From positions 1 through 37,858 of the forward strand of contig CAKZNV010000213.1 in the NCBI GenBank assembly GCA_937132085.1: DNA of 37,858 bases, given 5' to 3'. The notes beneath the pieces were generated by a model. It saw nothing but the letters and a program-made list of their open reading frames with translations. It was not told the origin of the DNA and made no database searches. This DNA is from an uncultured Rubritalea sp. GTDB lineage: Bacteria > Verrucomicrobiota > Verrucomicrobiia > Verrucomicrobiales > Akkermansiaceae. Positions 7,497 through 13,236 of the stretch are shown one piece after another. Numbering within the stretch: the stretch's first letter is position 1; every line of letters starts with the position of its first letter. A program made the position numbers and the translations under genes.

Positions 7497-7651
7497 AGGT
7501 TTGTAAAGTTGTTGCCGCATACTAATAGCCAAAATCACATTCTCAAGCCTAATATGTGACTAAATTCAGCCCCCATAAATACATAAATTTCACCTCAAAG
7601 CGAACTCTCCAGTAACCTTAGCTACCAGACCACTTACCTATAAACACCACT

Positions 7652-9259
7652 ATGATCCTCACCCACCTTTCCCGTCCGTTTTATCGCTTCCTCTGCCTAT
7701 GTTTCATTACTGTAATCTCGACTAACCTAGCCCACGCACAAGCTGCAGTAGACGAAGATCCATTCGCTGATGAAGCTGTGTATTCACTCATCCCAAGAAT
7801 GGTGCACCCAGCTCCGACTACTCAATACCTCAGCCCAAAAGTAAAAGACCAAAAAGCTCTAGAAATCACTTCGCTCTTTTCTACTCCTATAGAATACCTA
7901 CCAGATGCTCCAACCCAACTTACCAAACTCCCCCTAATCATCGATAAAACTAATCAAAACCACAAAATCTATGACATCACCAGTCGTTTTCCAAACATCA
8001 AAAAAGGTGATCAACAATGGGTCCACTATAATTCCACAAAGTTAAAAATCACAGCCAATGCCAATGCTTACCTCAGAACAAGCATTAGAGAATACGTCCA
8101 GAGAATCGAATTCACCCTACCTCTCACTATGAGAATCACGGGACAGTTGATTGAAGTAGATAGCAAAACGGAATCGAGCCTAAAAAACATTCAGTCTTTA
8201 ATCTCAAAAAACTCTAACCTGGTTAAGAAGTTACTAGAGATAGATTTAGCTGGGAGGCCTGAAAGCAAACTTATCCAAAAAAGAGAACAAGACCAATTTG
8301 CAATCGAAGCCATATTGGACTTTGGTCGGAGTCATGTTTGGGCATTAATTGATGTTAGTAAAGAAGGCTCTAGAGGAATTCAATTCACCTCAATTTTAAC
8401 ACCAAATGAGACAACTATTCTAGAATGTGGGCTCACTGTAGCCGGCAAGAAACAATTACTTATTATCCACCCAAAAGTATTAACTTTAAGCGGGAGACAA
8501 ATTGAAATCACTAGGTCACCTCCACATGTCTTTCCTCTTGATCCAGTTTTCATCTATGATGTCAAAGATGACCCCTTCGAACAAACAGATAACAAAATAT
8601 CCATTTACAAAGTTCCCAATGACTTTCTGAACCTATTCGAGAATGACGATTTCAAGCTCTTAATAAGCCCTGTATCTAGATATTTTAATAAAAATGATAT
8701 AGTCTACGATATAACCAAACTCTTTAACGAAGCTGGGATAAACTTAGATAATACTGTATATTTCAACAAAACGCACTCCGAGATTATTACACAATTAAAC
8801 TCCGAGAAACTACAGATGATCGAGATGCTATTATATGATATGCGCTGTGGAGGTGTCCCAAGAACCTTCTTTACCAGAGCTGTATTCTACGAGGTCGATA
8901 GTAGAAAACCTACAGATCAAGCCTGGACAACCACCTCCGTTTTACAATCTAAACCACAGCCTCTCTACAGATTTAGCATCAGCGATAGGTATGGCGAACT
9001 ATCAAAAATAACGTCACCTATTGGGCGTATCAAGTTAACAAATAGCGCCAGTGATGATGGAACCACAGCTGAACAGTCTTGGGAAATCGACATTCATCAT
9101 AATGGCCTCCAATTAAAGAAAAACCTAGAGTTCCTTGTTCCTTTGAACGGAACTACAATCATCGACCTAAAAGAGCTAGGTAACGGCCGCTCCATCATCA
9201 TGGTCATCGAAACTAAGGAAGAGCTTTACTACAAAGTCGAAAATCGTTTCCAGCAATAA
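7652..9259 (+). CDS. Secreted protein with two STN/secretin-N-like modules (paralogue 1 of 3)
   Basis: The 535-residue product has a signal peptide (hydrophobic LCLCFITVISTNLAHAQA). It contains two related modules. Module 1 (about 105-170) reads IYDITSRFPN, WVHYN, KITANANAYLRTSI and later TGQLIEVD. Module 2 (about 350-420) reads VYDITKLFNEAGI, VYFNKT, IITQLN and AVFYEVD. This pattern (DIT..F..GI, a YN strand, I/L-x-V/Q, a helix, then an EVD strand) resembles the STN/N0 fold at the front of secretins and TonB receptors. No secretin barrel follows. The C-terminus has LGNGRSIIMVIET. It is the first of three tandem paralogues and shares an ACCTATAAACACCAC leader with the third. Fold assignment is tentative; function is unknown. 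Confidence 0.7.
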   Translation: MILTHLSRPFYRFLCLCFITVISTNLAHAQAAVDEDPFADEAVYSLIPRMVHPAPTTQYLSPKVKDQKALEITSLFSTPIEYLPDAPTQLTKLPLIIDKTNQNHKIYDITSRFPNIKKGDQQWVHYNSTKLKITANANAYLRTSIREYVQRIEFTLPLTMRITGQLIEVDSKTESSLKNIQSLISKNSNLVKKLLEIDLAGRPESKLIQKREQDQFAIEAILDFGRSHVWALIDVSKEGSRGIQFTSILTPNETTILECGLTVAGKKQLLIIHPKVLTLSGRQIEITRSPPHVFPLDPVFIYDVKDDPFEQTDNKISIYKVPNDFLNLFENDDFKLLISPVSRYFNKNDIVYDITKLFNEAGINLDNTVYFNKTHSEIITQLNSEKLQMIEMLLYDMRCGGVPRTFFTRAVFYEVDSRKPTDQAWTTTSVLQSKPQPLYRFSISDRYGELSKITSPIGRIKLTNSASDDGTTAEQSWEIDIHHNGLQLKKNLEFLVPLNGTTIIDLKELGNGRSIIMVIETKEELYYKVENRFQQ

Positions 9260-9276
9260 TACTTATAAATATTACC

Positions 9277-10911
9277 ATGAGACTCACCCGCTCTTTCCAA
9301 CCACTCTTCTACGCCTTATGCTTTTGTCTCATTGCAGCTATTTTCAGCGCTTCCATCAATGCTCAAGTTAAACCCCCATCTGAACTGGATAGATGGAAAC
9401 TTATTCCCCGAATGGTTTACCCCGCTCCAGTAAATTCTTTTCTTAGTCCTAAACGTTTAGACCTTAAAGAACTGTATATCATCACCGCTTTCTCTGCTCC
9501 CATAGAACGTTTACCTAGTCAAAATGAAATGCTCAAGAACCAGCCACTGGTAGAAAATAAAGCCCGACCAAATAACAAGATCTACGATATCAGCTCCCAC
9601 TTCCCCAATATCAATAAAGGAGATAAACAATGGGTTCATTATAATCTGACTACTGGTCAGATCACAGCCAATGCTAACACTTATCTTAGAACTAGCATAA
9701 AAGAGTATCTCTTAAGAATTGAGGTCGTGTTGCCACTCGTATTAAAAACAACTGGATATATTGTAGAAGTAGATATCCACACTGACTCAAATTTGCAAAA
9801 GATTCTTAGTTTGATAAAAACAAAGTCTAAAAAAGTCCAAATCTTGGAAACACTAAAATCAGAAAGCTTCACAGATTCCTTCGTGAAACCTCAGAAAAAG
9901 GATGAAACCAAAAGCTCAATCATCACAAAGCTGAATAGAGAAAAAGGAGTTATCGTTGTCTCAGCACATCTACTACGAACGAACTCAGAGGTGATTGAAC
10001 TTTCTGGAATTATCGTCCCTAATCAGACGAGCCTTTATGAATGTGGTGTATCTAGAGGTGAGACAAAACAATTCCTCATTCTTACAGTGAATACAATGAC
10101 TGAAAAAGGTAGAGTGATCGACATACCTAAAACTCCTGACAGAGTATTAAAAGTTAAGTCATTAGGTATGAATGACCCTACGATAAAAGACAACTCCCAC
10201 GACCCTTTTGATATTGGTTCTGATGAAATGCTAAGAATCGAATACTACAAAGCTCCATCTGAATTAATAGGTATAGTAGGATATGTTAGACCAAAACTAA
10301 TCATCACTCCAAATTCACAATACTTCAAAAGCGCAGACATAGTTTATGATATTTCACATGAAATCCAGCAAAGTGGGATTCCTGTATCAGGTAATATTTT
10401 CTACAATCGGACACAAAATGAGATCATTAGCCAACTTGAGTTTGACCACTCTGAGATGTTTAACTCACTCTTGGAGGATGTAAGTAATAGAAGTATTCGA
10501 TTTTCTAATCTAAATACCAAAGCGACAATTTATGAAGTGAATACTCGAACTCCAAATAATGAAGCTTGGAATATACACATGATTGTTGATTCTGCTCCTA
10601 AGCTAATCTGTCGTTCAAGCTTCTGTTATAAATTGAGAGGTGGTTCTAGGCTGACATCATCTCTAGGCGAAATATCTCTCGATAATGTATTAACAGCCAC
10701 GGATGAGGATGTGATCATTAAAAATCTTCACTGGAATATTAATCTCGATAGCCCACAGCTAAAATTAAAGAAATCTATCGAAACTATCATCCCTAAAAAT
10801 GGAGTTGATATTGTTGATCTTAAATATTTAGGAAACGGTCGCTCGGTCATTATGCTAATCGAGACAATAGAGAACCCCTACTACACCTTCAAAAATCGTT
10901 TTCAGAAATAA
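9277..10911 (+). CDS. Secreted protein with two STN/secretin-N-like modules (paralogue 2 of 3)
   Basis: The 544-residue protein is a clear paralogue of its neighbours. The signal peptide ends near SASINAQ. The shared IPRMVYPAP segment is at about 43-51. Module 1 has IYDISSHFPNI, WVHYNLTTGQITANANTYL and TGYIVEVD. Module 2 has VYDISHEIQQSGI, IFYNRT, EIISQLE and ATIYEVNTRTP. The C-terminus is LGNGRSVIMLIET. It is closer to paralogue 3 than to paralogue 1. It starts 17 bp after the previous stop, with no Shine-Dalgarno sequence (ATTACC before ATG), so co-transcription is likely. It could act as a periplasmic or outer-surface scaffold; that is inference. Confidence 0.7.
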   Translation: MRLTRSFQPLFYALCFCLIAAIFSASINAQVKPPSELDRWKLIPRMVYPAPVNSFLSPKRLDLKELYIITAFSAPIERLPSQNEMLKNQPLVENKARPNNKIYDISSHFPNINKGDKQWVHYNLTTGQITANANTYLRTSIKEYLLRIEVVLPLVLKTTGYIVEVDIHTDSNLQKILSLIKTKSKKVQILETLKSESFTDSFVKPQKKDETKSSIITKLNREKGVIVVSAHLLRTNSEVIELSGIIVPNQTSLYECGVSRGETKQFLILTVNTMTEKGRVIDIPKTPDRVLKVKSLGMNDPTIKDNSHDPFDIGSDEMLRIEYYKAPSELIGIVGYVRPKLIITPNSQYFKSADIVYDISHEIQQSGIPVSGNIFYNRTQNEIISQLEFDHSEMFNSLLEDVSNRSIRFSNLNTKATIYEVNTRTPNNEAWNIHMIVDSAPKLICRSSFCYKLRGGSRLTSSLGEISLDNVLTATDEDVIIKNLHWNINLDSPQLKLKKSIETIIPKNGVDIVDLKYLGNGRSVIMLIETIENPYYTFKNRFQK

Positions 10912-10928
10912 CACCTATAAACACCACC

Positions 10929-12650
10929 ATGAGACTCACCCATACTTTTCAACAGCTCTATAGCTTTCTCTGCCTTTCTTTGATTACAGCTATTTTCAGC
11001 ACTTCTACTAATGCTCAAGTTTTGCCCTACACGGAGCCTGATGAAAGACATCTGATCCCTAGAAAAACGCATCTTGCTCCCGTAGATTCTTTTCTTAGCT
11101 CTAAACGTTTATACCCTGAGGAATTAGATGTTCTGAGCCTCTACTCTGCCCCTATAGAGCGTTTACCAAATCATCCTACTAAGCTCACCGAGCTCCCTCT
11201 GGTAGCAGATAAAGAAAAGCCAAATGACAAGATTTATGATCTTAGCTCCCGGTTTCCCAATATCCAAAAAGGAGATAAACAATGGGTTCACTATAATCTA
11301 ACTACTGGTCATATCACAGCCAATGCTAACACCTACCTCAGAACAAGCATTAGAGAATACCTCTTAAGAATAGAGGCCGAGTCACCACTTGTATTGAAAA
11401 CAACAGGATACCTCGTAAAGCTAGATATTCACGCTGATCCCAGTCTTAAAAAGATACTTAGTCTAATCGAAGCCAAGTCCGGTAAAGTCAAAATATTGGA
11501 AACAATAACATCAAAACACACCAAAAACACCTTCTTCGGCCTTAATATCATAGATAAAACCAAGAGTTCAATCGGCACACAGATTAATAGAGAAAAAGGA
11601 ACGATCGAGGTCGCAGCTAATCTGCTTCGTCCAAACTCAGGCTTAATTAAAATTTCTGCAGTGGTCGCCCCTAATGAAACGAATATTTTCGAATGTGGAT
11701 TAACAGATGGTGAAACAAAACAATTTCTTATTCTTACCGTGAACACCACAACTGAGAAGGGTCGAATTATCGAGATACCTAAAACATCTACTAAGATTTT
11801 AAAAATCGATTCATTAGGCATGAGTGACCCGACCAAAAACAACCAAAACGACGACCCTTTTGAAACAGAACATAACGACATACAAACAATTGAATACTAT
11901 AAGGTTCCATCTGACATTTTTGATACGATGAGTCTCTTTAGATCTAAATTAGTAACTGCTCCTGATTCTCAATACTTTAAGAGCTCAGATCTAGTTTATG
12001 ATATTTCACCAGTTACAGAAATGAGCGGGATTCCAACTTCAGGGAGCATCTTTTACAATTGGACTCATCATGAAATAACTAGTCAACTTGAGGTCGCTGA
12101 TTCTGAGATGCTGAGTTCGCTCCTAGAAAACTATAGCCAAAGAATGCATTCTCCTCCTAATTTAGATACGACAGCGACAATTTATGAAGTAAATATTCGC
12201 CCCCCTGAAGATGAGGCTTGGAATATGCACATGATCATCAATTCACAACCTAAGCTCATTTGCCGCTCAGCATTTTGTAATATTGAAGAGAATATTTCCA
12301 GACAGTCATCTCAGCTTGGAACAATCTCTCTACAACAGAAAACCTCTCCCACGATTGATAATCGTATTTTCACAAATCAATCCTGGGAGATTAATATCGA
12401 TAGTAAGCAACTAAAGTTAAAGGAATCTGTTGAAGCTAAAGTTCTAAAAAACGGAGTCTCAATCATCGATATCAAAGACCTTGGTAACGGTCGATCAGTC
12501 ATCATGGTCATCGATACAAAGGTAGAGCCTTACTATACCTTCATCGATCGTTTTCAAGAAGAGGAAGATGCTTATGAAAGAGCCTTAGATGCTGAGGATG
12601 CCGCGGCAGAGGCTGCAGAAGCTCTAGAAGCTGAAAAGTTAAATAAATGA
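10929..12650 (+). CDS. Secreted protein with two STN/secretin-N-like modules and acidic tail (paralogue 3 of 3)
   Basis: The 573-residue paralogue has the same plan: signal peptide to about TNAQV, IPRKTHLAP, module 1 (IYDLSSRFPNI, WVHYNLTTGHITANANTYL, TGYLVKLD), module 2 (VYDISPVTEMSGI, IFYNWT, EITSQLE, ATIYEVN) and LGNGRSVIMVIDT. Unlike the others, which stop at NRFQQ/NRFQK, it runs on about 30 residues as an acidic Ala/Glu-rich helix (EEEDAYERALDAEDAAAEAA). The 17-bp spacer before its ATG (CCTATAAACACCACC) matches the leader of paralogue 1, so the duplicated unit seems to include the leader. A 73-residue membrane protein follows 50 bp on. Confidence 0.7.
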   Translation: MRLTHTFQQLYSFLCLSLITAIFSTSTNAQVLPYTEPDERHLIPRKTHLAPVDSFLSSKRLYPEELDVLSLYSAPIERLPNHPTKLTELPLVADKEKPNDKIYDLSSRFPNIQKGDKQWVHYNLTTGHITANANTYLRTSIREYLLRIEAESPLVLKTTGYLVKLDIHADPSLKKILSLIEAKSGKVKILETITSKHTKNTFFGLNIIDKTKSSIGTQINREKGTIEVAANLLRPNSGLIKISAVVAPNETNIFECGLTDGETKQFLILTVNTTTEKGRIIEIPKTSTKILKIDSLGMSDPTKNNQNDDPFETEHNDIQTIEYYKVPSDIFDTMSLFRSKLVTAPDSQYFKSSDLVYDISPVTEMSGIPTSGSIFYNWTHHEITSQLEVADSEMLSSLLENYSQRMHSPPNLDTTATIYEVNIRPPEDEAWNMHMIINSQPKLICRSAFCNIEENISRQSSQLGTISLQQKTSPTIDNRIFTNQSWEINIDSKQLKLKESVEAKVLKNGVSIIDIKDLGNGRSVIMVIDTKVEPYYTFIDRFQEEEDAYERALDAEDAAAEAAEALEAEKLNK

Positions 12651-12958: not shown

Positions 12959-13236
12959 CTGTGCCTTCAGCACAGTCTAAACTAGATGATTTCAAGCCAT
13001 GACTGAAGTCATGGGCTTTGCACATTATGTCCTTTCAGGACAGCTCTGTGCTTTGGCCATCACCTTTAAGAACCGATGTCTGAATGCTTAGTCCTTTCAG
13101 GACGGCTCAGTGCTTTGGCTTCTCGCTGCTAGATCTATTTGATCATTTAATCTCCTGAAGGGAGAACGTGTGCATAGCCCTCGACTTCAGTCGTGGGTTA
13201 TCATCACCCCCAACATCCACCGTGCTGAAAGCACGG
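12959..13236. repeat. Cluster of seven short hairpins with a common TGAAR loop (REP-like)
   Basis: The gap between the 73-residue gene and the convergent folD holds no gene. It holds palindromes with different stems but the same loop, TGAA(A/G), or its complement. They are at 12959-12975 (CTGTGC stem), 12994-13018, 13028-13042 (TGTCC stem), 13091-13103 (GTCC stem), 13151-13165 (TCTCC stem), 13178-13197 and 13220-13236 (CCGTGC stem). Two of them lie in a ~29-bp direct repeat (13029-13057 and 13091-13119, ending GTGCTTTGGC). Short palindromes with a fixed loop resemble REP elements mobilised by RAYT (Y1) transposases. No such transposase is in this window. Confidence 0.75.

Follow-up and report, generated by a model that had tools for sequence, protein, structure and literature searches.

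What are the three exported-looking proteins encoded side by side in a 37,858-nucleotide (nt) stretch of DNA from an uncultured Rubritalea sp. (contig CAKZNV010000213.1, hereafter the window), and from what kind of protein do they descend? The array occupies positions 7652-12650 of the forward strand, on which its leaders, modules and tail also lie, and consists of three intact tandem open reading frames (ORFs) with ATG starts and 17-nt gaps: gene 1 (7652..9259, 535 aa (amino acids)), gene 2 (9277..10911, 544 aa) and gene 3 (10929..12650, 573 aa). As a first-pass annotation of the window had proposed, they are paralogues, and they align over their whole length with identities of 39-59% (59% between genes 2 and 3, 39% between genes 1 and 2). 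Searches of Pfam and NCBIfam with the three proteins returned nothing meaningful even at E 10, including no match to PF00263 (Secretin) or PF07660 (STN) at that threshold and none to NF042912 (the Amuc_1098 family, equivalog cut-off 750 bits), although one distant array member matches NF042912 in its N3 part with 20 bits. PADLOC gave no match to the window proteins at E 0.1. The evidence set out here makes a secretin origin and fold very probable: it is strongly supported that each protein consists of two modules in series, each an N3 domain plus a secretin core, with sequence identifying the N3 domain of module 2, and the predicted fold identifying both cores and module 1. The secretins described to date are gated channels of the outer membrane, assembled as 12-17-fold multimers; the trio derives from secretins but does not qualify as one.

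The duplicated architecture was already visible in the repeated motifs I/VYDI-S/T, YN, TANANxYL, ITSQLE and EVD, which are present as first described, and the profiles of module 1 and module 2 align with each other in hhalign with probabilities of 98-99.5% (E 2e-13 at 98%). Within single sequences the repeat is weak, with own-module scores of 64, 30 and 52 for genes 1, 2 and 3, where shuffled sequences reached at most 54, 56 and 56, respectively. In gene 2, module 1 (9538..10176; residues 88-300, modelled alone) has its predicted beta core at ~9733-10107, and module 2 (10228..10884; residues 318-536) comprises an N3-like domain (318-405) and a beta core (409-534). The other modules were placed by alignment to those of gene 2: module 1 of gene 1, an N3-like domain plus compact secretin core, lies at 7925..8560 and its module 2 at 8585..9256, and those of gene 3, likewise a double-module paralogue, lie at 11190..11828 and 11868..12560.

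The sequence link to secretins was found with a profile (A1) built from 12 close relatives and including no secretin. In the window's own genome, A1 matched an 863-residue protein of the Amuc_1098/PilQ type at E 1.1e-10 over profile positions 312-427; the profile search that the first-pass annotation named as a check thus does lead to secretins. This protein carries PF00263 at residues 617-831 (E 2.7e-29, 102 bits), TPRs and a PF07660 STN match at 338-382 (E 6.6e-5, under the STN cut-off), and sits in a putative pilus-type operon, gene roles being assigned by reading. Over 260 genomes of the family, A1 gave 24 matches. Fifteen are family members, 11 of them known and 4 new; the other 9 are ORFs of 815-945 aa matched at profile positions 307-428, and in 6 of these (all those checked) the motif VPxLGDxPxLGxLF is present. 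A wider profile, A2, found matches in 203 of the 260 genomes, and among the matches listed most are long secretin-type ORFs hit over the same segment; against PDB sequences A2 found the secretin BfpB (E 5e-4, residues 259-330, comprising N3 and the beginning of the barrel). Thirty candidate secretin loci were collected, five of which failed a motif filter (L046, L047, L048, L080 and L090), the remaining 25 giving 22 after deduplication. Module 2 aligns to these 22 secretins in hhalign with a probability of 97-98% (E 1e-10 to 8e-14, columns 427-551), the match stopping just within the secretin domain. Both this alignment and the BfpB match place an N3 domain immediately ahead of the secretin domain in module 2, and judged by sequence the homology to secretin N-domains is statistically firm.

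On the 863-residue secretin, the family's match falls on the later N-domain, downstream of STN and directly before the PF00263 domain. The likeness to secretin N-domains that was first noted therefore stands, while its assignment to the STN/N0 type was rejected on the position of this region and on the null STN search. A broader version of that idea, that the proteins are unrelated STN/TonB-type signalling domains or simply decaying duplicates, draws on the STN-like pattern and on rapid divergence, but is highly improbable given that the domain is N3 rather than STN, that the frames are intact and that genes 2 and 3 give a ratio of nonsynonymous to synonymous substitution rates (dN/dS) of ~0.26 (dN 0.29, dS 1.12). 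Pseudogene decay was rejected on the last two grounds. Genes 2 and 3 are under purifying selection; dS is 3.1 between genes 1 and 3, and genes 1 and 2 are saturated and give no dS value. Because the pilus secretin is the closest homologue outside the family and is encoded in the same genome, the array proteins might also be accessory subunits of it, acting as decoys or scaffolds that co-assemble through N3 and core. In this genome (G000), however, the pilus operon and the array lie on different contigs, and secretin-type matches are common (the A2 result above) whereas whole-length array members are rare (8 of 386 genomes); most secretins therefore do without array proteins, and we consider such an accessory role improbable.

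The predicted fold extends the relationship into the cores. AlphaFold2 was run on gene 2 with 10 relatives, and the full-length gene 2 model has a mean predicted local distance difference test score (pLDDT) of 74 and a predicted template modelling score (pTM) of 0.72. With this model as the query, Foldseek gave 21 rows at E<=0.001, every one of them an entry that contains a secretin. In VIA-align, secretins fill ranks 1-26 for residues 316-536 (module 2), with Z 11.8 for InvG (174 residues at 9.9 Å), 11.6 for GspD, 11.3 for pIV, 10.5 for PilQ and 10.7 for the RcpA core (113 residues at 4.9 Å). Module 1 modelled alone (pLDDT 78, pTM 0.65) also places 26 secretin rows first, with Z 5.4-8.4, several of them covering 104-108 residues at 3.4-3.7 Å, and the best-matched InvG giving Z 8.4 (105 residues, 3.7 Å). 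The high root-mean-square deviation over whole modules would be consistent with a hinge joining N3 to the core. In the predicted models both modules thus have the double-walled secretin beta core (Z 11.8 and 8.4). The structural comparison proposed in the first-pass annotation leads to solved secretins, and the statement that no barrel follows the N-domains is wrong in part, as a compact predicted secretin core follows each of them.

This core is strongly trimmed. It measures ~125 residues in the array family against 239 in the BfpB secretin domain, leaving ~100 residues missing, and the motif VPxLGDxPxLGxLF, which occurs in 17 of the 22 secretins, was found in none of 19 family members (0/19). 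The segment bearing this motif is one that we take to form the membrane-inserting lip. That the core is cut to approximately half of a working secretin domain, without VPxLGDxPxLGxLF, is strongly supported, and it bears directly on whether the trio could still be a channel. In that scenario the proteins would form a hetero-oligomeric secretin-like ring with two pseudo-protomers per chain (three genes, six modules), a gate perhaps being supplied by another protein. Both modules retain N3 and the core strands, two genera (g1 and g9) have double-module genes in tandem while g12 has single ones, and an export signal is recognizable, all of which would suit a channel; the halved core, the absence of the motif from all 19 members and the variable gene number per place (1, 2, 3 or 5), hence no fixed stoichiometry, speak against it and make it a poor candidate. 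A ring size deduced from six modules per operon was dropped, as array sizes vary.

The reading we favour, with modest confidence, is that the trio are envelope structural proteins descended from an Amuc_1098-type (PilQ-like) type IV pilus secretin. After Sec export, the proteins would remain periplasmic or become attached to the outer membrane. They could pack laterally by way of their N3 and beta-core faces, as secretins do in ring formation, and, presumably with neither gates nor a membrane-inserting segment, would serve as structural or scaffold subunits and not as an export channel. We rate the chance that they are structural and not a channel as even, and a ring-type packing is held with less confidence than that. 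In relatives where the array accompanies a VIT-SLBB-TPR protein (see below), the array proteins probably act together with it.

Several points weigh against this reading. Beyond the N-domain, the sequence match of module 2 takes in just the first core strand, and the homology of the core is therefore structural; the loss of gates and lip is deduced from the core's length and the missing motif rather than from coordinates. Eleven sequences underlie the models, with the pLDDT values of 74 and 78 given above, and whole-chain template modelling scores are low, at 0.10-0.15, in the best 21 Foldseek rows. The window array has no VIT neighbour. Module 1 is the weaker half: hhalign found nothing when it was compared directly with the 22 secretins, and a VIA Z of ~8 is at the edge of meaningful by the tool's own grey zone, so that its assignment rests on VIA together with the profile match to module 2. 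Nor did module 1 give any Foldseek row at E<=0.001, its top rows being C2 domains. As these are beta-sandwiches, they raise the alternative that the proteins act as soluble monomers in binding or adhesion, the trimmed core now closing into a beta-sandwich and each paralogue having its own ligand. Such a function would agree with the fast divergence and with duplication specific to the lineage. In VIA, though, the C2 rows for module 1 reach Z <=4.8 against 8.4 for secretins, and an N3-like domain is conserved alongside the core, for which a simple binding domain would have no need; we regard this alternative as unlikely.

The distribution of the family is patchy. A search of the window's own genome (4.46 Mb, 254 contigs) with a single sequence returned the three array genes alone, and a single-protein scan of a wider collection, genome_contigs, found no relative. 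Matches occurred in 3 of 58 genomes (own genome counted), all of one genus: in G001 there is one triplet, and in G003 a triplet plus a pair and one single fused gene. G220, G228 and G019 hold more distant relatives of whole length, a further single gene occurs in G033, and the longest array seen, in G019 (L059:3327-11119), comprises five adjoining double-module genes of 508-536 aa with overlapping start and stop codons. At E<=1e-18 the family was found in the 8 of 386 genomes of the order cited above, all within the window's family and in 3 of 50 genera; G001 is absent from the match list of this 386-genome draw. The presence in related genomes, about which the first-pass annotation had asked, is thus confirmed but scattered. 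In the tree, rooted at midpoint for drawing only and with the G003 C236 member on a long branch, the three window genes form one group (support 100/99), whereas each gene of the G001 triplet pairs with its counterpart in G003 (firsts 100/100, seconds 94/94, thirds 100/100). It is therefore strongly supported that the window triplet was duplicated within its own lineage; that its genes were kept by selection is likewise strongly supported.

Some of these relatives have recurrent neighbours. In G001 and G003 the double-module triplet comes after a VIT-SLBB-TPR-type protein and a short lipoprotein-like gene; the G003 protein has VIT, a weak SLBB and TPR, and its G001 counterpart is truncated at the start, where the contig ends. 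In the G003 protein (L014:1515-4655) the SLBB part is 52% identical to an own-genome polysaccharide-exporter-like protein (L027:877-1452), which comes after a tyrosine-kinase-like gene (names by eye). The short lipoprotein-like gene preceding the G003 triplet (L014:4690-5226) resembles a lone secretin core by eye, and a stretch similar to it is fused to the N-terminus of the C236 member (L016:1262-3325).

A second type of array, of single-core proteins, has the same kind of neighbour. In G006 (L100:7460-13730) four tandem exported single-core proteins of 230-249 aa stand directly before a VIT-SLBB protein, and in G134 (L105:2167-8279) four stand directly before a VIT-domain protein, both VIT proteins exceeding 1100 aa and the SLBB match being weak in G006. 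Two of the four G006 proteins were searched in NCBIfam and match Amuc_1098_fam (E 4e-29 and 3e-17). The G006 proteins align with the core of the 863-residue secretin of the window's genome save for an absent VPILGDLPLIGRLF stretch; the loss falls within readable homology, and the lost segment is the one missing from the double-module family. A profile built from single-core proteins (A6) gave strong matches in many genomes of the family, often in tandem. Among 48 VIT matches, 13 adjoin a single-core gene (same strand, within ~310 bases), in 12 of 28 genomes; these 28 were picked since most carry such arrays, and 13/48 is not an unbiased rate. The adjacencies are in G000 (contig C95), G006, G019, G022, G033, G133, G134, G137, G138, G180, G199 (two) and G220. 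The VIT-SLBB-like protein on C95, its SLBB part aligned by eye, is that of the window's own genome. Arrays without a VIT neighbour also exist, for example in G139, G141, G165 and G174. When the profiles of the double-module and single-core types were compared directly, neither matched the other, and the two are joined via pilus secretins only. Taken furthest, these associations might reflect a new secretin-derived assembly in which gateless double-module subunits and the VIT-SLBB-TPR protein form a hetero-oligomeric outer-membrane ring or sheath, a proposal we advance as no better than speculative.

The remaining features of the locus concern export, leaders and surroundings. The N-terminus of all three proteins is hydrophobic and ends in ..AQ, without a lipobox (both by eye), marking them as exported by sequence; in gene 2 the probable signal peptide (9277..9363, residues 1-29) has its cleavage site placed by the ..AQ, and residues 3-29 form a helix in the model. 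An acidic tail exclusive to gene 3 among the trio was correctly noted in the first-pass annotation: it covers 12561..12647, with 11 D/E in 29 residues, and genes 1 and 2 are without it. The leader of gene 1 is ACCTATAAACACCACT (7636..7651), and those of genes 2 (9260..9276) and 3 (10912..10928) are the 17-nt intergenic gaps. The 17-bp leader previously described as common to genes 1 and 3 reduces to 14 identical bases, CCTATAAACACCAC, which occur just twice in the window; the string as written had 15 letters, of which the 15th differs. Gene 2 has a related leader too, equal to that of gene 1 at 12 of 17 positions, and all three genes have TATAAA(C/T)A(C/T)(C/T)AC(C/T)ATG in common up to the ATG. 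By eye, no Shine-Dalgarno-like motif precedes any of the three genes, and promoter and terminator scans gave scores under shuffle expectation. The guanine-plus-cytosine content of the three genes is 37-40% versus 44.5% for the window. On the opposite strand, nuoB/nuoC-like genes flank the array and a folD-like gene lies downstream of it (all names by reading of the sequences). Between the array and the folD-like gene, 12987-13206 contains an imperfect 54-nt inverted repeat (76%) and two 29-nt direct repeats, whose pattern has no other site in the genome at <=2 mismatches.

If the envelope structural reading is true, the secretin fold is detachable from export, having been trimmed, doubled per chain and multiplied in tandem, and the trio would be natural constructs for asking which parts make a ring and which a membrane channel. 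The repeated occurrence of a VIT-SLBB neighbour suggests that the family to which Rubritalea and probably Akkermansia belong has an envelope system not yet described, and a ring or sheath, should it exist, would put the secretin fold to another use, one that needs neither a pilus nor a secretion machine.

The first-pass annotation knew of no described system of this form, and among the listed papers of the open-licence PubMed Central (PMC) literature no description of such arrays was found. The closest known relative is the Amuc_1098/PilQ-type pilus secretin of Verrucomicrobia, which likewise has an N3-like domain followed by a secretin-core fold, an export signal, and sequence homology to the trio over N3 and the first core strand; an excerpt of PMC4960237 reports its localization in the outer membrane of Akkermansia muciniphila by immunogold. 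The trio differs from it in having no TPR or STN part, two modules per chain, a core of about half the length without the VPxLGDxPxLGxLF segment, and no match to PF00263 or NF042912. The solved secretins BfpB, RcpA, InvG, GspD and pIV share their fold with module 2 and, to a lesser degree, with module 1, and BfpB is additionally similar to the array family by sequence. All five are gated outer-membrane multimers with secretin domains of ~240 residues, as against the ~125 of the trio core; in BfpB, an excerpt of PMC12114550 describes the domain as residues 307-545, with an outer barrel, an inner barrel and two gates. The single-core tandem proteins resemble the trio in being exported, tandem, secretin-derived and without VPxLGDxPxLGxLF, and their arrays are linked to VIT-SLBB proteins, as are the double-module arrays of G001 and G003; they differ from the trio in having one core each and no N3.

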